Shown one piece after another: positions 22,299-33,053 of a stretch of 33,053 nt of DNA. A program made the position numbers and the translations under genes. Each line of letters opens with the position of its first letter. Position 1 is the stretch's first letter. Below the pieces are notes generated by a model. That model was not told the origin of the DNA and ran no database searches. It saw only the letters and a program-made list of their open reading frames with translations. This DNA is from Rhizobium sp. Q54 (GTDB taxonomy: Bacteria > Pseudomonadota > Alphaproteobacteria > ATCC43930 > CGMCC-115725), in contig CAMATN010000048.1 in NCBI GenBank assembly GCA_945861155.1, forward strand, positions 1-33,053, read 5' to 3'.

Positions 22299-22928
22299 AT
22301 GCTTAGACTTTACTATGCTCCCGGCACGTGCGCGCTCGCGACGCACATCGCGCTGGAAGAGGCCGGCGCGCCTTACGAGGCGGTTCTGGTCGATTTCCGG
22401 TCGCAGAGCCAGCGGAGCGCCGAATACCTCGCGGTAAACCCGAAAGGGCGCGTTCCCGCGCTGGTGACCGAAAGCGGCACGCTTACGGAAACGCCCGCGC
22501 TGCTGTGCTTTGTGGCGCAGCGCTTTCCAAACGCCGAACTCGCCCCCCTCGATGATCCGTTCGCCCTGGCGCAGGTGCAGGAATTCAACAGTTATCTTTG
22601 CGCGACCGTGCATGTGGCGCACGCGCATGGCAGGCGCGGCACAAGGTGGGCGGACGACGCCGCGGCGATCGAGGCGATGCAGCGCAAGGTGCCGTCGACC
22701 ATGACGGAATGCTTTGAGCTGATCGAGCACAAGCTCGTGAAGGGTCCGTGGGTCATGGGCGACCGGTATACGATCTGCGATCCGTATCTGTTCACCATCG
22801 CGTCCTGGATCGAAGGTGACGGCGTCGACACCACCAAAGTGCCGCGAATCATGGAGCACCGCAGACGCATGCTGGCGCGTCCCGCCGTGCAAAAGGCGGT
22901 GGCTGCCGAAGGCACGCAGATTCCTTGA
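22299..22928 (+). CDS. Glutathione S-transferase, beta-class-like
   Basis: A 209-residue cytosolic GST. The thioredoxin-like N-terminal domain begins MLRLYYAPGTCALATHIALE, with Cys11 at the position of the beta-class catalytic cysteine (Cys10 in the classical enzyme). NPKGRVPAL carries the cis-proline, followed by the glutathione-contacting TETPALLCFVA. The C-terminal helical domain contains the conserved MGDRYTICDPYLFTIASW. AGAAGGA stands 8 bases before the ATG. It probably conjugates or reduces electrophiles with glutathione. The next gene overlaps or abuts its stop, so the two are likely co-translated. Confidence 0.93.
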   Translation: MLRLYYAPGTCALATHIALEEAGAPYEAVLVDFRSQSQRSAEYLAVNPKGRVPALVTESGTLTETPALLCFVAQRFPNAELAPLDDPFALAQVQEFNSYLCATVHVAHAHGRRGTRWADDAAAIEAMQRKVPSTMTECFELIEHKLVKGPWVMGDRYTICDPYLFTIASWIEGDGVDTTKVPRIMEHRRRMLARPAVQKAVAAEGTQIP

Positions 22929-22939
22929 CGCGCCAGGCA

Positions 22940-24244
22940 ATGGCCTCTGTGGATTTGACGCATTTTCTTGTCGTCGGCGCCGGCGCGGCGGGGCTGATGA
23001 CGGCCCGCGAGCTTGCGCGCGCAGGCAAGCGAGTGACCATCATCGAGGCGCGAGACCGATGCGGCGGACGCATCTTCCCGCTGCCGTCCGAGGAATTCGG
23101 ATACAAGGCGGAGGGCGGCGCCGAGTTTGTCCATGGCGCCGCCCCGGTAACGCGAGCCGTGATGCGCGAAGCGCGACTGTCGCTGTCGCCGCGCCAGGGT
23201 ACGCGATGGAGTGCCCGCACCGGTGCGTTGTCGCCCGACGAGCCTTCGCTTCCCGACGCGGATCGGTTCTATCAAGCCTTGACGGAGGTGAAAGCCGATC
23301 TGCCCGTCGCCGAATTCCTGGAGACGCATTTTGCCGGTCGGCGGTACGACGAGCTGCGGCGCTCGGTCACCCGAACGGTCGAGGGCTACGACGCGGCCGA
23401 CCCGCACCGCTTCAGCACAATGGCGCTGCGCGACGAGTGGATTTCTCGGGACGATGGCGAGCACGGCCGGATCGCGCAAGGCTACGGCGCGCTGATCGAC
23501 TATCTCGCATCCGAATGCCGCTTGCAGGGCGCCGCGATCCATTTCGGCGCGGCCGTAACTTCCGTCGACATGGTCCGGGGACGCATCGCCGCACGCTGTC
23601 GCGACGGCGCCGTCTTCGAGGCCGATGCCGCGATCCTCGCCGTGCCGCTCCCGCTCCTGTCCGACATCGCGCTTCCGTCGGCGACGCGCGAGCGGGTAGC
23701 GGCCACGGCCGATATCGGGTTCGGCAACGTTGTCAAGATCCTGCTGCGCTTCGAAACGAAATGGTGGGCCGATAGCGGCGGTCGAAATCTGGGCGATTTG
23801 TCGTTCCTAATGTCGAACGCGCGGGTCCCGACCTGGTGGACACAGCATCCGGACGAATATCCGGTGCTGACCGGCTGGTTCGCCGGGCCCAAGGCCGACA
23901 GGGTGTCGGCGCTCACCGAGGCCGAACTGATCGACATGGGGCTCGCCTCGCTCGCGGAGATTTTCGATCTGCCTCCAGACCGCATCAGCACGAACCTCGC
24001 CGCGTCGCGAGCGATCAACTGGGGCAACGATCCGTTCGCGCGCGGCGCTTATTCCTACGCCACGCCCAGGACGCGCGACGCGCTGTCGGTGCTCAGAGCC
24101 CCGAGTGGCGACGCCATATTCTTGTCCGGCGAGGCGCTCTATGCCGGACCGGATATGGGCACGGTCGAGGCGGCGCTGGCCAGCGGCCAGGAAACAGCGC
24201 AGACGATCCTCAGAGGGTCTCCGGCGACATCACCCCGCGCCTGA
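22940..24244 (+). CDS. Flavin-containing amine oxidase family protein
   Basis: About 434 residues. The FAD-binding Rossmann motif VVGAGAAGLMTARELARAG is near residues 11-29, then EARDRCGGRI, which continues the dinucleotide fold. The C-terminal GEALYAGPDMGTVEAALASG contacts the flavin as in monoamine oxidases. Reaction: oxidation of an amine (or a related C-N or C-C bond) with FAD; the substrate is unknown. Start: ATG 22940 or a TTG at 22925 overlapping the GST stop; neither has a clear ribosome binding site, so coupling to GST translation is likely. No signal peptide is evident, though the N-terminal strand is the FAD fold itself. It converges on maeB with 43 bases between stops. Confidence 0.9.
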   Translation: MASVDLTHFLVVGAGAAGLMTARELARAGKRVTIIEARDRCGGRIFPLPSEEFGYKAEGGAEFVHGAAPVTRAVMREARLSLSPRQGTRWSARTGALSPDEPSLPDADRFYQALTEVKADLPVAEFLETHFAGRRYDELRRSVTRTVEGYDAADPHRFSTMALRDEWISRDDGEHGRIAQGYGALIDYLASECRLQGAAIHFGAAVTSVDMVRGRIAARCRDGAVFEADAAILAVPLPLLSDIALPSATRERVAATADIGFGNVVKILLRFETKWWADSGGRNLGDLSFLMSNARVPTWWTQHPDEYPVLTGWFAGPKADRVSALTEAELIDMGLASLAEIFDLPPDRISTNLAASRAINWGNDPFARGAYSYATPRTRDALSVLRAPSGDAIFLSGEALYAGPDMGTVEAALASGQETAQTILRGSPATSPRA

Positions 24245-26570: not shown

Positions 26571-26815
26571 AATCGCCGATGCTCCTCATCCGGCCCGTTA
26601 ACAGCGGTGAGGGCCCGTCGGCAATGTAGAGGAGTGGGCGTCTTTAGGTCAAAGCCGCACGCCACCAAAGCACCGGTGCTCCACGCCAGTGGAGATGGTG
26701 TCCAGTCATAAGTCCCCTTCGGGGTAGCGGCGGACATGAGGCGGCACCGCGCGGTGCTCGCGGGTTTGAGACAAATTTGTTACTATCGGCGGCGTTCAGA
26801 GGTCGAGGGGTGCCA

Positions 26816-27610
26816 ATGCCCGACGAGCTTTCCTTCCGAGCGGAAGCCGCCGCTGAGTATGACCGTGCTGTCTCCCATGTCTCGGCCTACTTCCTGCCGT
26901 TCCTGCTGCGCGCCGCGCGGCTCGCGCCAGATCAGCGCGTCTTGGACGTGGCGACCGGGACCGGGATAGCGGCGGAAGCCGCGCTCGGCATCGTCGGTCC
27001 AGCCGGATCGGTGGTCGCCACGGACCTGTCGCCCGAGATGGTGGACGAGGTGCGTCGGCGCATCGAGCACTCGCCTAACGCTACCGTCGCGGTCGAGGAT
27101 GGGCAGGCGCTCTCCTTCCCCGATGAAAGTTTCGACGCAGTGCTGTGCAGCCTCGGGCTCATGTTCTTCCCTGACCCAGCCCGGGCTTTAGCCGGCTTCC
27201 GCCGCGTGCTGCGGCCCGGCGGGCGGGCGGCTGTCTCCGCCTTGACTGCCTCGGAACGCTCCTACAACGGTCGCATTAACGTCATTGTGGCGCGGCATAT
27301 GCCAGACTTGGCGCCAGCCATAGCCCGCACTTTTGCACTCGGCGACGCGGCGCGGCTCCAGCAGCTCTTCGTCGAGGCCGGCTTTCTGGACATCGAGACT
27401 GGCACCGAGAAGCACAGCTTTGTGCTGCCGTCCTTCGACGCCTATTACGGCCCCTTTGAGCGCGGCGGGGGCTCCACCGGTCAGGTGCTGGCCTCGTTGC
27501 CCCAGGCGGTGCGGCACGCTGTTCGGGAGGAGATGCGGCAGGCGCTCAGCGATACCGGCGGGCCGGTAGAGATCGAGGTAGAGATCAGGATCGCCAGCGG
27601 CCGGCGGTAG
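26816..27610 (+). CDS. Class I SAM-dependent methyltransferase (UbiE/Methyltransf_11-like)
   Basis: 264 residues. The SAM-binding motif I VLDVATGTG is at 42-50, VVATDLSPEMV is motif II, and DGQALSFPDESFDAVLCSLG spans motifs III-IV. The post-IV segment FRRVLRPGGRAAV is typical of UbiE/COQ5-like small-molecule methyltransferases. The start ATG at 26816 has GAGGGG 5 bases upstream. It stands alone, with 130 bases before the next gene and 245 bases after the maeB start on the other strand. The C-terminal 110 residues are diverged, so the substrate is unknown. Confidence 0.9.
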   Translation: MPDELSFRAEAAAEYDRAVSHVSAYFLPFLLRAARLAPDQRVLDVATGTGIAAEAALGIVGPAGSVVATDLSPEMVDEVRRRIEHSPNATVAVEDGQALSFPDESFDAVLCSLGLMFFPDPARALAGFRRVLRPGGRAAVSALTASERSYNGRINVIVARHMPDLAPAIARTFALGDAARLQQLFVEAGFLDIETGTEKHSFVLPSFDAYYGPFERGGGSTGQVLASLPQAVRHAVREEMRQALSDTGGPVEIEVEIRIASGRR

Positions 27611-27739
27611 GTAGCCCTCGGCACCCGTCGAACCCGGCGGGGGACTCAAGCGTGTGATTTTGACCACTAGGCTCAACTGAACCGAAAAGTAGCGGCGGCG
27701 ATGCAACCACCGCATCAGCGCCATGACAGGAGCGACGCC

Positions 27740-28816
27740 TTGAAATACGGCAAAACCCAAATCTTCGCCGGTGCGGGAGCCGCCCCCTCCCGCGAGGGTG
27801 TCCTGTTGCGCGGCGGATTGTTCCGCTGCGCTGCCGGAGAAGGCAGGTGGGAGGCGCTGAACGCGGGTCTTCCCGAGAACGCCGAAGTGCATGTGATCCT
27901 CGTGCATCCCACCGACCCGGATGTGATCTTCGTCGGTACGCAGGACGGTCCCTACCGCAGCACCGATGGCGGCGATCATTGGCAGCCTCTCGGGTTTCCC
28001 GATCGCGGCGTCATGATCTGGTCGCTGAGCGTTCATCCGACCCGCCCGAACATCATGTATGCCGGCGCGGCGCCGGTCGCGCTGTATCGCAGCCTCGACG
28101 GCGGCGATACCTGGAGCCGGCTGCCGAAGGCGATATCGCCGGCGCATTGCGAACGTGCCGGCTTCGACTCGCGGGTGCTGCGCATCACGGTCGATCCCAA
28201 CCGGCCGGACGACATTTATGCCGCGCTCGAGGTCAGCGGCGTCATCCGCAGCAGCGATGGCGGCGAAACCTGGTCCGACATGTCGGCGCCGCTGATCGCG
28301 CTCGCCGAGCAGCCGCATCTGCAAAGCAGCGTCGGCGGACGCCATTGCGGGCATTGCGAGGGCATGCTCGATTCGCATGCGACCGCGATCAGCGCGGCGG
28401 CGCCCGATACCGTGTTTCTCGGGCTCAGGATGGGGCTGTTCCGCAGCGATGACCGGGGCGCGAATTGGTACGATGCCGAGATCGGCCGGTTTTCGCCGCT
28501 GACCTATTGCCACGATGTCGTCGTGTCGCCGCACGATCCGCGAATCATGTATGTCTGCCTGTCGCCCGCGGCCTTCAGCGACGACGGGTCACTTTACCGC
28601 AGCGACGATCTCGCGCAGAGCTGGCGGCGCATCGACCACGGAATCAAGGCCAACTCCACCCTAATGGCCCTCAGCGTGCATCCGAGCGATCCGGCGCAGG
28701 TTTATTGCGTCACCCGCGGCGGACAGGTTTTCGGGACGGACGATTCCGGCGGTTCCTGGCGGGAATACCCGCTGCCCGGCGGTGTCGAGGATGTCTACGC
28801 CGTCGCCTGCCGCTGA
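27740..28816 (+). CDS. BNR/Asp-box beta-propeller protein (sialidase/Ycf48-like fold)
   Basis: About 358 residues from a TTG at 27740 with CAGGAG 7 bases upstream; an ATG at 27701 lacks such a site. Six Asp-box repeats recur: RSTDGGDHW, RSLDGGDTW, RSSDGGETW, RSDDRGANW, RSDDLAQSW and GTDDSGGSW. Most are preceded by a VHPxxPxxxY-type strand, so the protein should form a six- or seven-bladed propeller. An insertion holds a Cys/His cluster (RHCGHCEGMLDSH, residues 201-213) that could bind a metal. No signal peptide is seen. It may be a binding protein or a hydrolase, but the sialidase arginine triad cannot be confirmed by eye. It sits 85 bases before the duplicated-module gene, with possible co-expression. 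Confidence 0.8.
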   Translation: MKYGKTQIFAGAGAAPSREGVLLRGGLFRCAAGEGRWEALNAGLPENAEVHVILVHPTDPDVIFVGTQDGPYRSTDGGDHWQPLGFPDRGVMIWSLSVHPTRPNIMYAGAAPVALYRSLDGGDTWSRLPKAISPAHCERAGFDSRVLRITVDPNRPDDIYAALEVSGVIRSSDGGETWSDMSAPLIALAEQPHLQSSVGGRHCGHCEGMLDSHATAISAAAPDTVFLGLRMGLFRSDDRGANWYDAEIGRFSPLTYCHDVVVSPHDPRIMYVCLSPAAFSDDGSLYRSDDLAQSWRRIDHGIKANSTLMALSVHPSDPAQVYCVTRGGQVFGTDDSGGSWREYPLPGGVEDVYAVACR

Positions 28817-28901: not shown

Positions 28902-29840
28902 ATGATGACAGTGGTGCAGAAGACAAGTTTCACGGCCGGCCCGTTAACGTTCGCCGTCAAGCACGAATTGTGGGACGGCAACATCCAGGATCATCCGGAT
29001 CAGGGTGTCGCGATCACCGTGGCGGCGCAGATCGACGGCAAGCAGACGACCCTGTTGCGGTTCAACTGCTTTGATTTCGAAAAAAGCTACATCTACGGCC
29101 CGGAAAATGCCGAGCTGGAGCTTGAAGGACCCGAGATGCTGGGCGGGGCGCCCTTGACCAACCTCTACCGAATGGACCCGATCGCCGACGGGAACCCGAT
29201 CGGCTGGACCGTCAAGACCCTCGGGACCAAGCTCTCGAAGATGCTGGAGCGGGCCGGCTATCCGCAGATCGCCGCCGCGACCGATCCCGCCAAGGTGGCG
29301 AGCATCCTGCCCGATGTCGAAGCCTGCGCCCGCGAGCTGTATGCCACCAAGCGAAACACGGTCAAACACAACCGCGGCACGCATATTTTCGACGCCGGCA
29401 ACATCCGGTTCGGGCTCGAGATGCGGCGGCTGCCGATGGGCGATGGCGGCCTCGCCATCCACGTCCTGGCCGATATCGGCGGGACGCCGGGCAAAGCCTA
29501 CACGGAAGAAACCGAGCTTCTGGCCTTTGATCACTTCTGGAACGGCGCGCATTACCATTACGGCCCCCGCAACAAGAACCATCGGATCTATTGGGACCGG
29601 ACATTGGTCGAAGATCCGCTGGCGTGGACGTTGGAGCAGTTCGAGACCGGGAAACTGCGGGCGATGATCGAGCGGGCAGGCTATCCGGGGATCGCGGCCG
29701 ATCTCGACGCTGAAAAAATAGCCTCCGTCTTTCCGGCGATGAAGAAGCAGGCGCTCGATATGTGGGCGGAAGGCGAGAGGTTGACCGGACATCCGGGGCT
29801 GCCACTGGAGGCGACACCGAACATGGCCGCAGCCGAATAG
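28902..29840 (+). CDS. Tandem-duplicated protein of unknown function
   Basis: 312 residues made of two copies of one module (about 10-147 and 163-289). The clearest matches are ERAGYPQIAA (116-125) against ERAGYPGIAA (257-266), FTAGPLTF against FDAGNIRF, and the core FNCFDFEKSYIYGP (54-67) against FDHFWNGAHYHYGP (209-222). Module 2 keeps a His-Tyr-His pair (217-219) that is absent from module 1 (Ser-Tyr-Ile-Tyr region). There is no signal peptide or membrane segment, so it is likely cytoplasmic. The start has AAGGGAG about 9 bases upstream. A single-module relative lies at 31007-31441. I recognise no named family or activity. It converges with the TauD-family gene across a strong hairpin. Confidence 0.85.
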   Translation: MMTVVQKTSFTAGPLTFAVKHELWDGNIQDHPDQGVAITVAAQIDGKQTTLLRFNCFDFEKSYIYGPENAELELEGPEMLGGAPLTNLYRMDPIADGNPIGWTVKTLGTKLSKMLERAGYPQIAAATDPAKVASILPDVEACARELYATKRNTVKHNRGTHIFDAGNIRFGLEMRRLPMGDGGLAIHVLADIGGTPGKAYTEETELLAFDHFWNGAHYHYGPRNKNHRIYWDRTLVEDPLAWTLEQFETGKLRAMIERAGYPGIAADLDAEKIASVFPAMKKQALDMWAEGERLTGHPGLPLEATPNMAAAE

Positions 29841-29935
29841 CGTAGCAGGCCGAGCTGTAAACCAGTAAGGGCTGCGGCCGCTGCTCTCGTTCGCAGCGCC
29901 GCAGTCCGGAACCCGGCCCCCGCCAATTCGGTCGG

Positions 29936-29966
29936 CCTCCGGTCCTGGGCACGCCAGGACCGGAGG
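29936..29966. terminator. Strong bidirectional terminator-like hairpin
   Basis: CCTCCGGTCCTGG (29936-29948) is perfectly complementary to CCAGGACCGGAGG (29954-29966), a 13-bp stem with a 5-base loop, between the convergent genes ending at 29840 and 29990. No long U-tract follows on either side, but position and stability fit a shared terminator. Confidence 0.7.
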
Positions 29967-29989
29967 ACCTAGCGTCGCCTAGAACCCAT

Positions 29990-30889
29990 CTAGATCGGCA
30001 TTCCGACCTCGGATTGGGCAAGCCTGCCGTCGGGCATGACGTGGCGATAGCGGTCGAGCGTCATCGTCATCCGTTTCATCAGGCGCCTCGCGCCCGGGTC
30101 GAACGGGGTGCGGCGGTGCATCGTAAAGCCGTTGTCCCACATCACCAAGTCGCCGATTTGCCATTGGTGGGCGTATACGTACTCGTCGCTTGTGGCGCTT
30201 TCGTAGACCTCATCCAGCACGGCAAGGCCTGAGGCCGTGTCCATGTAATCGATGCCGATTGTCGTCGTCGAATCAAGGTAGAGCGAGCGGTCGCCGGTCT
30301 CGGGGTGGGCGCGGACCAGCGCATGCGTCACCGGCGGCGTCAACCGTTTCGTCTCTTCCGAGATCTGCTGATCCGCCGCGCGCCCGTACCCCGCGAGCCG
30401 CTTCGTGTAATCGAAAATACCGCGCTTGCCGGCGATTCTCGCCCGCAACTGGCGCGGCAGGCCCGCATAGGCGGCGCGCAAATCGACCCAGAAGGTTTCG
30501 CCGCCCTCGGGCGGCAGTTCGAGCGCGTAGAGCGCCGCACCGGTCGCCGGGTTCAGCATATAGGACTGGTCGGAGTGCCATTGCAGCTCGCCGTCGCCGA
30601 GCCCGCCGATGGCTCGCCCGAGCCCATCCTTCAGATTGGAGAGAACCGTCACCTCGGGCGTCGCAGGCGATGCCCAATCGCTCCGCACGGTGCGCTCCAG
30701 CGGCCCAAACAGACCGCAGAACGCCGCGAGCTCTATTTCGCTCAGCGCCTGGCGACGAAACACCAGGACGCCGTATTGCGCGTAGAGAGCGCGCAATTCC
30801 GCGACAGTCGCATCGTCCAGCCGATCCCATAGACTGAGGCCGACGACTTCCCGCGCCAGGGTCGGGTGGAGCTGTCGCGTTTCGAGCAT
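29990..30889 (-). CDS. TauD/TfdA-family 2-oxoglutarate/Fe(II) dioxygenase
   Basis: A 299-residue jelly-roll dioxygenase. The iron facial triad is His105, Asp107 (WHSDQSY) and His258 (FTMHRRTPF), and Arg268/269 in PGARRLMKR should bind the 2-oxoglutarate carboxylate. The start has GAGGA 6 bases upstream. Reaction: hydroxylation, usually followed by cleavage, of an unknown substrate using O2 and 2-oxoglutarate, in the cytoplasm. The upstream same-strand gene at 31007-31441 is a single-module unknown protein, 117 bases away, so they may share a transcript. Taurine and 2,4-D-type substrates are only two of many in this family, and this context supports neither. Confidence 0.92.
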   Translation of the reverse strand: MLETRQLHPTLAREVVGLSLWDRLDDATVAELRALYAQYGVLVFRRQALSEIELAAFCGLFGPLERTVRSDWASPATPEVTVLSNLKDGLGRAIGGLGDGELQWHSDQSYMLNPATGAALYALELPPEGGETFWVDLRAAYAGLPRQLRARIAGKRGIFDYTKRLAGYGRAADQQISEETKRLTPPVTHALVRAHPETGDRSLYLDSTTTIGIDYMDTASGLAVLDEVYESATSDEYVYAHQWQIGDLVMWDNGFTMHRRTPFDPGARRLMKRMTMTLDRYRHVMPDGRLAQSEVGMPI

Positions 30890-30936
30890 GGCTGCGTCCT
30901 CGGTAACCGGCGAGGTGGAGGATCGTCACTCTTTGC

Positions 30937-30956
30937 CCGCGCGCGCAAGCGCGCGG
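30937..30956 (-). promoter_or_regulatory. Hairpin between the single-module gene and the TauD-family gene
   Basis: CCGCGCGC (30937-30944) pairs with GCGCGCGG (30949-30956) around GCAA, which is a GNRA-type loop on the plus strand. It is UUGC on the minus-strand transcript, where the genes lie. No U-tract follows. It may attenuate or punctuate the two-gene unit. Confidence 0.35.
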
Positions 30957-31006
30957 TTCGTTATCAGGCGCGCAGCGCAGCGCCAAGGATCAGAAAATTC
31001 GCGGTG

Positions 31007-31441
31007 TCACCGTCCCTGGTGCGCGGCGCTGAGCGCGCGGATCTGGCTGGCGGCGTTCGTCAACTCCTGATCGCGCAGCTGCGACGCCACGCCGTCCTCC
31101 TCGGCCAGGGCAAGGAGCCCCCGGAACCGAAGCGGCTTTTCAAAAAATGCCATCGTGGCGTCGAGCGGGCTTTGCCCCTGCGCGACCGGAAGCGGGATCT
31201 GATCGGCGAGGCCCGGCCGGATGTGGTAATGGGCGCCCATGCTGAACGGGTCAAAGCGCAGCGCCTGCTGCCGCTTGCCGGCCACGGCAACCACGATCGA
31301 GGGTCGCTCGATCTGGTCCGGCTCGCGGCCGGCCGGCGATCGATCGGGGTGGAACAGGATCTCGATATGCGGCCCGGCATTGATCATGTGCCATCCGGTC
31401 CGGTCCTCGGGCATTGTCTGCTGCATTCGCACTGGCTGCAT
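31007..31441 (-). CDS. Single-module relative of the duplicated unknown protein
   Basis: 144 residues. The core FDPFSMGAHYHIRP (63-76) lines up with FDHFWNGAHYHYGP in module 2 of the 28902-29840 protein, including the His-Tyr-His. The flanking regions also fit: an N-terminal AGPHIEI strand and a C-terminal PLDATMAFFE region followed by an amphipathic helix. The ATG at 31441 has GGGAGGT 5 bases upstream; the longer frame to 31684 has no support. It is on the TauD strand, 117 bases upstream of that gene. It lacks a signal peptide. The two His residues could be ligands or catalytic, which is inference; no family recognised. Confidence 0.75.
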   Translation of the reverse strand: MQPVRMQQTMPEDRTGWHMINAGPHIEILFHPDRSPAGREPDQIERPSIVVAVAGKRQQALRFDPFSMGAHYHIRPGLADQIPLPVAQGQSPLDATMAFFEKPLRFRGLLALAEEDGVASQLRDQELTNAASQIRALSAAHQGR

Positions 31442-31711: not shown

Positions 31712-31785
31712 GCGGGTGTAGCTCAATGGCAGAGCAGAAGCTTCCCAAGCTTACGACGAGGGTTCGATTCCCTTCACCCGCTCCA
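31712..31785 (+). tRNA. tRNA-Gly (anticodon CCC)
   Basis: A 74-base cloverleaf with an encoded CCA. The acceptor stem GCGGGTG pairs with CACCCGC. The D-arm is GCTC...GAGC. The anticodon stem GAAGC/GCTTA brackets the loop TTCCCAA, with anticodon CCC reading GGG. The T-arm is GAGGG-TTCGATT-CCCTT. It is on the same strand as, and 114 bases before, a tyrosine-recombinase gene, so it probably serves as the integration site of the element to the right. Confidence 0.95.
31749..31785 (+). other. Probable attachment-site half (3' part of tRNA-Gly)
   Basis: Integrative elements of the tyrosine-recombinase type commonly use the 3' end of a tRNA gene. The intact tRNA next to an integrase reading away from it fits that pattern. 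No second copy of this segment is in the window, so the exact core cannot be set. Confidence 0.3.
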
Positions 31786-31899
31786 TAATCCCGGGCCGGT
31801 TTGTCAAAGATTACAACAAACTAGCAAGCATTCCGGGTGCTTGGCACGGTGGGTTGGCGCGAAACTGTCTAACATTTCGTCCAACACACCTTGTTGCGC

Positions 31900-32907
31900 A
31901 TGCCCGATTTCCTCACCCGCCGCGGCGGCGTCTGGCACTTCGTCCGACGCGTCCCAGCCGAGTTCGAAACCGTCGATCCGCGCGGCATCATCCGGCATTC
32001 GACGCGCATCCGGATCGCCGACGACAGGTCCGGCCGCAGGGCTGCGCGGGTAGCCGAGGAACTCAATGGGGCTCTCGAGTGCCACTGGAAGTCCCTCGTC
32101 GACGGTCCATCGCGGTCGACTAGCAGCAGGTATGACGACGCTCGCCGCTGCGCTCGCGCGCTCGGCTATGATTACATTCTCAATGCGCAGCTGATCTCCC
32201 TTCCGATCGAAAGGACCCTGGAGCGGCTGGAGGCGCTCGTCGCGAAGGGGGTGGCGCAGGATCCAATCGCCCGCACGGCCTTGCTTGGAACCGAGAAACG
32301 GCCAAGCTTTTCCCTGTCCCGGCTATTCGAGGAATACGAGGCCGCGACGCGGGACGAGATCCGGGACCTGTCGCCGGATCAGTTGCGGATTTGGCGGAAC
32401 GGCCGCATCCGGGCCGTCGCGCAATTCGTCAAGGTGGTTGGCGACAAACCGATTACAGAGATCACGGAGAGCGACGGCATCGACTATGCCGAATGGTGGC
32501 GCGAGCGCATCGTCGAAGAGGATGGCGCGGCGAAGACCGCGAACAAGGATATCGGCCAGCTGAGCCGGATGCTGAAGGAAATGAGCATCCGCCGTCGCCT
32601 CAACCTCCCGGACATTTTCAAAGGGCTGCGGCTTCACGGCGAGATCGAAAAATCCCGCCACCCCTATGATCCGGCCTTCATTCAAGGACGCTTTCTCACG
32701 GGCGATGCGCTCGCCGGCCTCAACGAGGACGCCCGGCTCGTCCTCTATGTGATGATCGAAACCGGCCTGAGGCTTTCCGAGATCGTCAATCTACGCGAAG
32801 GCACCATTCTGCTCGACGCTGGTATCCCGCATGTGAAAGTTGCCGCAGACGGACGGCGGCTGAAGACCGAAGACTCCGCGCGCGAGATGCCGCTGGTGGG
32901 CGTAGCG
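31900..32907 (+). pseudogene. Tyrosine recombinase (phage/ICE-type integrase), truncated by an IS end
   Basis: About 336 integrase codons remain. The N-terminal half is a core-binding region, with a short start like alphaproteobacterial phage integrases. VMIETGLRLSEIVNL holds catalytic Arg I, and LKTEDSAREMPLV holds the beta-hairpin Lys region. The frame then enters the IS-like sequence at about 32908 and stops at 32964, so the HxxR, the second His/Trp and the nucleophilic Tyr are missing. The enzyme should be inactive unless it is rescued elsewhere. Start: ATG at 31900, with TTG 31891 and 31894 also in frame and no strong ribosome binding site. The gene reads away from the tRNA-Gly, as in an integrated island. 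Confidence 0.88.
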
Positions 32908-33053
32908 TGTAAATTCGCGGGCAATAGTGACCCCCTGAGGGGCGGTTTTCGCGTCCAATCGTGACCCTCTGACGCGGTGTGTCAGCGTCCCTTCCTTTTC
33001 GGCCGGTGCCGGCTGGGAAGGGTTGGGGGATGATTGCGGTGGACACGATCGGC
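32908..33053 (+). mobile_element. IS21-like element, left end (continues beyond the window)
   Basis: The segment begins TGTAAATTCGCGGG, as IS21-family termini usually begin with TG. Two imperfect direct repeats follow: CGCGGGCAATAGTGACCCCC plus TGA (32916-32938) and CGCGTCCAATCGTGACCCTC plus TGA (32950-32972), with 19 of 23 bases alike. Multiple internal terminal repeats are characteristic of IS21. The window then ends in a G-rich stretch and a start codon. The right end and any target duplication are not visible. Confidence 0.75.
33030..33053 (+). CDS. istA: Start of an IS21 transposase gene (istA), partial
   Basis: Eight codons, ATG ATT GCG GTG GAC ACG ATC GGC (MIAVDTIG), follow GGGTTGGGGG. 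IstA proteins often begin MIAVDTI-like. The call depends on the preceding IS21-like end repeats and is limited to the first 24 bases in view. Confidence 0.55.

Follow-up and report, generated by a model that had tools for sequence, protein, structure and literature searches.

The window analysed here, a stretch of 33,053 nucleotides from Rhizobium sp. Q54 (CAMATN010000048.1, positions 1 to 33,053), corresponds to one contig (G000:C48) of a draft genome of 4.88 Mb, and carries two genes of the protein family DUF7700 (Pfam PF24777) that flank a gene for a TauD-family dioxygenase. One of them, hereafter the double, encodes a 312-residue protein with two copies of the DUF7700 module, and the other, the single, encodes a 144-residue protein with one copy (Table 1). 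The double and single genes lie about 1.2 kb apart; on the minus strand the single gene is followed by the TauD gene after 117 bases, and the double gene, on the plus strand, converges on the latter. This layout had been described in a first-pass annotation of the DNA, and the coordinates agree with it; the sequences quoted there (ERAGYPQIAA and ERAGYPGIAA of the double protein, and the cores of the three modules) are likewise all present in the translations. Its statement that the modules belong to no named family had to be corrected, as DUF7700 is named in Pfam, where it is uncharacterised and has no assigned function. No family was found in NCBIfam for the double or the single, nor in PHROGs for four DUF7700 proteins, and the open-access literature returned no paper on DUF7700 or PF24777.

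Each of the three modules exceeds the 25-bit gathering cut-off curated for PF24777, and at E 0.001 the draft genome has no further DUF7700 match. The halves of the double protein match each other in BLASTP (E=7e-17, 34% over 124 residues), in agreement with the tandem duplication seen by the first-pass annotation, and the third copy that it recognised in the 144-residue protein is recovered in the comparison of double and single (E=1e-5, 27% over 128 residues). Throughout, subfamily A designates doubles of the window type and subfamily B a second type of double, seen in Chloroflexota-type genomes. Profile-profile matches had a probability of 91% (E=1.2e-6) for window-type singles against SAR202-type singles, and of 96% (E=1.3e-8) for window-type singles against subfamily B modules. 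Chance or low-complexity similarity among the three copies would find some room in the score of the single, which barely passes the Pfam cut-off (26.9 against 25 bits), and in that of its relative in L048, which at 23.4 bits falls just short of it, another relative (L043) reaching 34.3 bits; this explanation is refuted by the BLASTP values, the profile matches, alignment A6 and the model of the single protein, and hardly any credit is left to it. Furthermore, in codon comparisons with relatives (five relatives for each of the two modules of the double, plus two for the single) third positions differed most in 12/12 cases, a pattern typical of genes under constraint; both halves of the double are constrained, and the first changes faster than the second. 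Doubles as well as singles are met repeatedly within the family, from which the window departs in that its single represents a divergent branch (length 4.3) and the first half of its double has no core polar set.

Table 1. DUF7700 genes, their modules and other features of the window (positions are those of the window).
Feature	Position	Strand	Basis or remark
Double DUF7700 gene, 312 residues, subfamily A	28902..29840	+	Open reading frame; PF24777, 208 bits, two stretches
Module 1 of double, degenerate, without the Arg-Asp-His-His set	28929..29327	+	PF24777, 92.3 bits
Module 2 of double, keeps R175, D210, H217, H219, also E173, H187	29385..29750	+	PF24777, 115.6 bits
Core of module 1, FNCFDFEKSYIYGP, residues 54-67	29061..29102	+	Translation
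Core of module 2, FDHFWNGAHYHYGP, residues 209-222	29526..29567	+	Translation
Single DUF7700 gene, 144 residues, divergent, keeps R34, D64, H71, H73	31007..31441	-	PF24777, 26.9 bits
Core of single module, FDPFSMGAHYHIRP, residues 63-76	31214..31255	-	Translation
TauD-family dioxygenase, neighbour only, judged outside the system	29990..30889	-	PF02668, 201.8 bits
Flavin amine oxidase (PF01593)	22925..24244	+	72% homologue directly after the single gene in relative L048

The modules differ in a set of four polar residues, namely an Arg, an Asp and a His-x-His pair, which correspond to R175, D210, H217 and H219 in window numbering. In an earlier count the residues were found in 58/58 other modules and in 0/13 window-type first halves; these figures are not independent, and were partly circular because the subfamily B and SAR202-type single rows had been picked by a motif that includes the histidines. 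Thus, the count was repeated after masking the four columns in a profile built from all modules, and a search with it of the six-frame open reading frames (ORFs) of the loci fetched by earlier searches yielded 224 domains in 122 ORFs, those cut at locus ends possibly counting twice. All four residues were present in 102/102 second halves; the first halves had all four in 18/102, none in 83/102 and a masked sequence in 1/102, with no intermediates. The 18 complete first halves are those of subfamily B, seen in Chloroflexota-type genomes, and the 83 without the set are of the window type. Among single-domain rows the complete set was found in 15/20, and the other five correspond to ORFs cut at locus ends, a broken copy at L045, a fragment of a masked double, or the window-type single, whose Arg fell outside the local alignment in this count and is aligned as R34 in alignment A6.

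Alignment A3, composed of 77 subfamily A rows (the window and 76 relatives at 58-83% identity), gave the same picture, the set being absent from 77/77 first halves and present in 77/77 second halves, where E173 and H187 are invariant as well. At the four positions module 1 of the window has E22, N55, S62 and I64, and the first halves of A3 have E or Q at position 22, N or H (not D) at 55, S, G or T at 62, and I, V, T, E or D at 64. These first halves have invariant residues of their own in 77/77 rows, among them W24, D25, N27, H31, D33, Q34, C56 and D58. Subfamily B doubles carry FDCF...HYHY in both halves, and the single-module proteins of Chloroflexota-type genomes share the same core. Many subfamily B doubles (at loci L167-L170, L172-L173, L175-L176, L178, L186 and L188) also have a short C-terminal tail with a heptad-like pattern, of the type KTKAQLIQELESLREQVAAL, as if it were a coiled-coil for dimerisation or the trace of a lost fusion.

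A module tree was constructed with six signature columns removed, and its branches joined the second halves of subfamilies A and B (support 100/99), the first halves (83/72) and the singles (96/99). Since the second halves of both subfamilies group together, and the first halves do likewise, the duplication predates the separation of the two subfamilies, and the window-type first half has then most simply lost the site, in a single loss. This supports the first-pass proposal that copy 1 had lost its histidines, as the 18 subfamily B first halves keep the residues and the tree fits one loss in the window type. The proposal went further and suggested that one half might have become non-catalytic or structural. 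This half did not simply decay, because the residues that are invariant in all 77 first halves indicate that it was probably repurposed, and the activity kept by the other half would be a presumed catalysis.

The proteins were also modelled with AlphaFold2, using a 77-row alignment for the double (predicted local distance difference test, pLDDT, 88.2; predicted template modelling score, pTM, 0.78) and a 55-row alignment for the single, composed mostly of modules of other proteins (pLDDT 87.5, pTM 0.84). The main order of elements is predicted to be common to the three modules, each with five short strands and, after them, three or four helices, in accordance with a shared fold as far as element order goes; module 1 has one extra short strand in its model, at residues 88-90, within its insert. 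DUF7700 would be a small alpha+beta domain, about 115-140 residues long, whose conserved core would place the Arg, the Asp and the His-x-His pair on successive predicted strands. Indeed, R175, D210 and H217/H219 sit in that order in predicted strands of one module, and this strand order suggests that the four residues line one pocket and form one site. Foldseek searches returned no match at E 0.001 or better, either in PDB with both models or in the viral database BFVD with the model of the single, and the best value of a sequence-profile search of PDB was E 0.43. The sheet-plus-helix arrangement is similar to those of the PUR repeat (VIA-align Z 4.8, root-mean-square deviation 4.0, 85 aligned residues) and of p32/C1QBP (Z 4.6, root-mean-square deviation 4.5, 96 aligned residues); these scores are insufficient for a claim of kinship or of a shared fold with either protein, and were treated as no match.

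With the integration of these findings, we lean, with modest confidence, towards DUF7700 being an enzyme family with an Arg-Asp-His-His site, of which one half of the window-type double is a degenerate version. Read as a catalytic or metal-binding site, the Arg-Asp-His-x-His set makes an enzymatic family most likely. The double protein would derive from an old tandem duplication, after which subfamily B would have kept the site in both halves and subfamily A in the second half only, its first half having lost all four residues and acquired an invariant set of its own and an insert; the most likely role of this degenerate half would lie in completing the substrate pocket, in regulation or in dimerisation. 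The 144-residue protein would be a fast-diverging single-module paralogue that keeps the core set, and the TauD gene a chance neighbour, with no other constant partner. Several points weigh against this proposal. Neither a constant partner nor a cofactor motif nor a solved relative points to a reaction, and a conserved polar set can also serve in ligand or nucleic-acid binding. The site is not identical throughout the family, as H187 is absent from the first halves of subfamily B and from window-type singles, and E173 varies in several classes. Further, the grouping of the first halves is moderately supported (83/72), the window-type singles stand on a very long branch (4.3), and the subfamily B and SAR202-type single rows of the tree were picked by a motif containing histidines. 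The lack of any hint of a reaction or cofactor would suit a family that binds small molecules, metals or nucleic acids, in which the double would be a two-site binder with one site altered; one half could then lose its residues without decay of the protein, and the best structural alignments, weak as they are, were to binding proteins (PUR repeats and p32). We regard such a binder as possible, albeit doubtful, since the strictness of the set in second halves (102/102) is judged more typical of catalysis or metal binding and such low structural scores carry no weight.

A remote kinship with the TumE toxins (PF20126, DUF6516), by which DUF7700 may act on RNA, appears clearly improbable. TumE has been described, in passages of a published account, as the toxin of a bicistronic toxin-antitoxin pair (PMC10584680), an arrangement that differs from that of the DUF7700 doubles, for which no constant neighbour was found. 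The likeness is local, a pattern [YF]D-x(n)-HxH followed by a helix that looks alike by eye in both families, with no match at profile level. Also in favour are weak matches to DUF7718 (PF24839; E 0.046-0.12) from two subfamily B proteins, one of them searched both whole and as a module, and DUF7718 in turn has a TumE-like pattern and an hhalign probability of 7% to TumE. One of these two proteins matches collinearly over about 60 positions; by profile comparison the likeness to DUF7718 is not significant. With test profiles of 8 and then 14 TumE sequences, and of 4 DUF7718 sequences, the hhalign probability of DUF7700 remained under 1% against both TumE and DUF7718, at best near the midpoint of the ranking among 120 comparisons with unrelated profiles; in hmmsearch one row reached E 0.019 and the next 0.19, and ten DUF7700 proteins or modules gave no TumE match at E up to 10. 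Kinship with TumE or DUF7718 was thus considered unsupported, its scores being no better than those of unrelated controls. DUF7718 itself had matches in 6/201 genomes around G532, five of them over the cut-off, and none was returned in 299 phylum genomes, which does not show absence.

The first-pass annotation had also proposed that the modules and the dioxygenase form a short pathway or an enzyme-plus-partner system, which now seems highly unlikely and is largely refuted. The tight layout of the window speaks for it, as the single gene shares its strand with the TauD gene and only those 117 bases separate the two. The dioxygenase is a full-length member of its family (residues 3-275 on positions 1-267 of the PF02668 profile), with WHSDQSY and MHRRTPF matching, by eye, the HxD...H iron-ligand motif of TauD/TfdA proteins. 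Linkage was assessed with a TauD profile built from 25 genes of the window genome, which recovers 28/30 control loci, largely those on which it was trained; the resulting counts cover near linkage, many loci being short. TauD was present in 4/82 double DUF7700 loci, the window counted, and in 0/55 further DUF7700 contigs or loci, with some overlap among these and with the 82, so that the repeated pairing expected of partners was not seen. In four genomes of the same genus relatives of the window TauD protein (85, 81, 80 and 64% identity) had no DUF7700 beside them on the 5-16 kb stretches examined; two of these genomes (G002, and G006, which is 74% complete) gave no DUF7700 match at all, and the other two carry DUF7700 on other contigs. 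The window genome contains 33 TauD-family matches, a large paralogous set, therefore a TauD neighbour by chance is unsurprising, and the gene between the double and the single is best explained in this way. As an aside, the genome G003 of the same genus has 37 matches to the window TauD protein.

Taken together with the distribution of the family, these results allow a fuller statement that we put forward only tentatively, somewhat short of an even chance: DUF7700 may be a family of enzymes that has gone unrecognised, with an Arg-Asp-His-x-His active site on a fold that PDB does not yet contain; expanded in SAR202-type Chloroflexota, patchy in Proteobacteria, it would include in the window-type double an asymmetric enzyme, its ancient second active site having become a non-catalytic partner half. 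The family is now divided into asymmetric doubles, symmetric doubles and singles, with four residues named, and some Chloroflexota genomes are shown to have multiple copies. Should the site be catalytic, organisms already noted for their many paralogous catabolic enzymes would gain an unknown reaction, and the window-type double would constitute a clear natural case of a double protein in which one half loses its site.

In the search for relatives, DUF7700 was found in 10/99 genomes, all of them in two genera of one family and including the window genome, and in an even draw of the phylum it was found in the window genome only, among 398 genomes. When named genomes were scanned with a profile built from ten doubles, 152 candidate stretches yielded 97 relatives, and 80 were retained; they come mostly from drafts labelled Acetobacteraceae, Alphaproteobacteria, Betaproteobacteria, SAR202, Dehalococcoidia and Chloroflexi/Chloroflexota, and the scan could find little beyond the window type because its search words (RNTVKHNR and RFGLEMRR) were taken from that type. 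The 58-83% identity to the window double across the 76 other rows of A3 is high for a gene present in several phyla. The 50 genomes reached through these loci have 2-9 DUF7700 domain matches each, Chloroflexota-type genomes often with several paralogues, and plasmid and phage collections returned no match to the double protein. Relatives of the window single were found in 3/38 other genomes of the family. Among these, the single gene of G035 (L045, 1734-2269) is split over two reading frames, through either a frameshift in this copy or a fault in the assembly. Single and double are not generally linked, as they lie on different contigs, which are short, in G034, G035 and G036, and in four Chloroflexota-type genomes 9-25 kb separate them. 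Drafts labelled Rokuibacteriota (L050) and Actinobacteria (L049) also contain doubles with 82% identity to the window protein, which represent either horizontal transfer or misbinned contigs.

Regarding other neighbours, none is constant for the doubles among the 82 loci, and those observed are often catabolic, a point in favour of an enzymatic role. Within 1.2 kb, 231 genes were called, the window left out, and 164 of them, picked by hand, were scanned; those dropped were mainly short, very long or duplicate-looking, and at least one (L062) belongs to the luciferase cluster. In places the gene caller picked antisense frames, and it missed real window genes at 27701-28816 and 26777-27610. Luciferase-like monooxygenases were the most frequent among the 164 (at least 13), with ThuA (at least 6), Ldh_2 (at least 5), glyoxalase and TctC (at least 4 each) and amidase (at least 3) behind them; they also constitute the largest neighbour cluster, with 19/82 loci, 13 of these within 1.5 kb. 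Passages of one report describe very many luciferase-like monooxygenases in SAR202 genomes (PMC5395668). They were considered as partners of DUF7700 and taken as context instead, because many come from syntenic Chloroflexota loci and SAR202 is rich in them. Among the neighbours at 18 fetched loci, for the most part of subfamily B, we found an SDR gene in 13, a luciferase-like gene in 11, and the housekeeping genes purH (14), purM (12) and purF (12). In relative L048 the single gene stands in a tight row between an amidohydrolase and a flavin amine oxidase, the latter homologous to the window oxidase in Table 1; this linkage is weak, occurring in 1/3 relatives with a single, and the other two have different neighbours.

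At the edges of the locus, a 371-residue protein of the BNR/Vps10-type propeller class (PF15902) is encoded directly upstream of the double gene, at 27701-28816, with no homologue at E 1e-3 in 13 relative contigs. On the other side, immediately after a tRNA-Gly(ccc) gene at 31712-31785 there is an open frame of 357 residues (31891-32964) that looks integrase-like by eye and has no Pfam match at E 1e-4; together, the tRNA gene and this frame may represent the edge of an integrated element.

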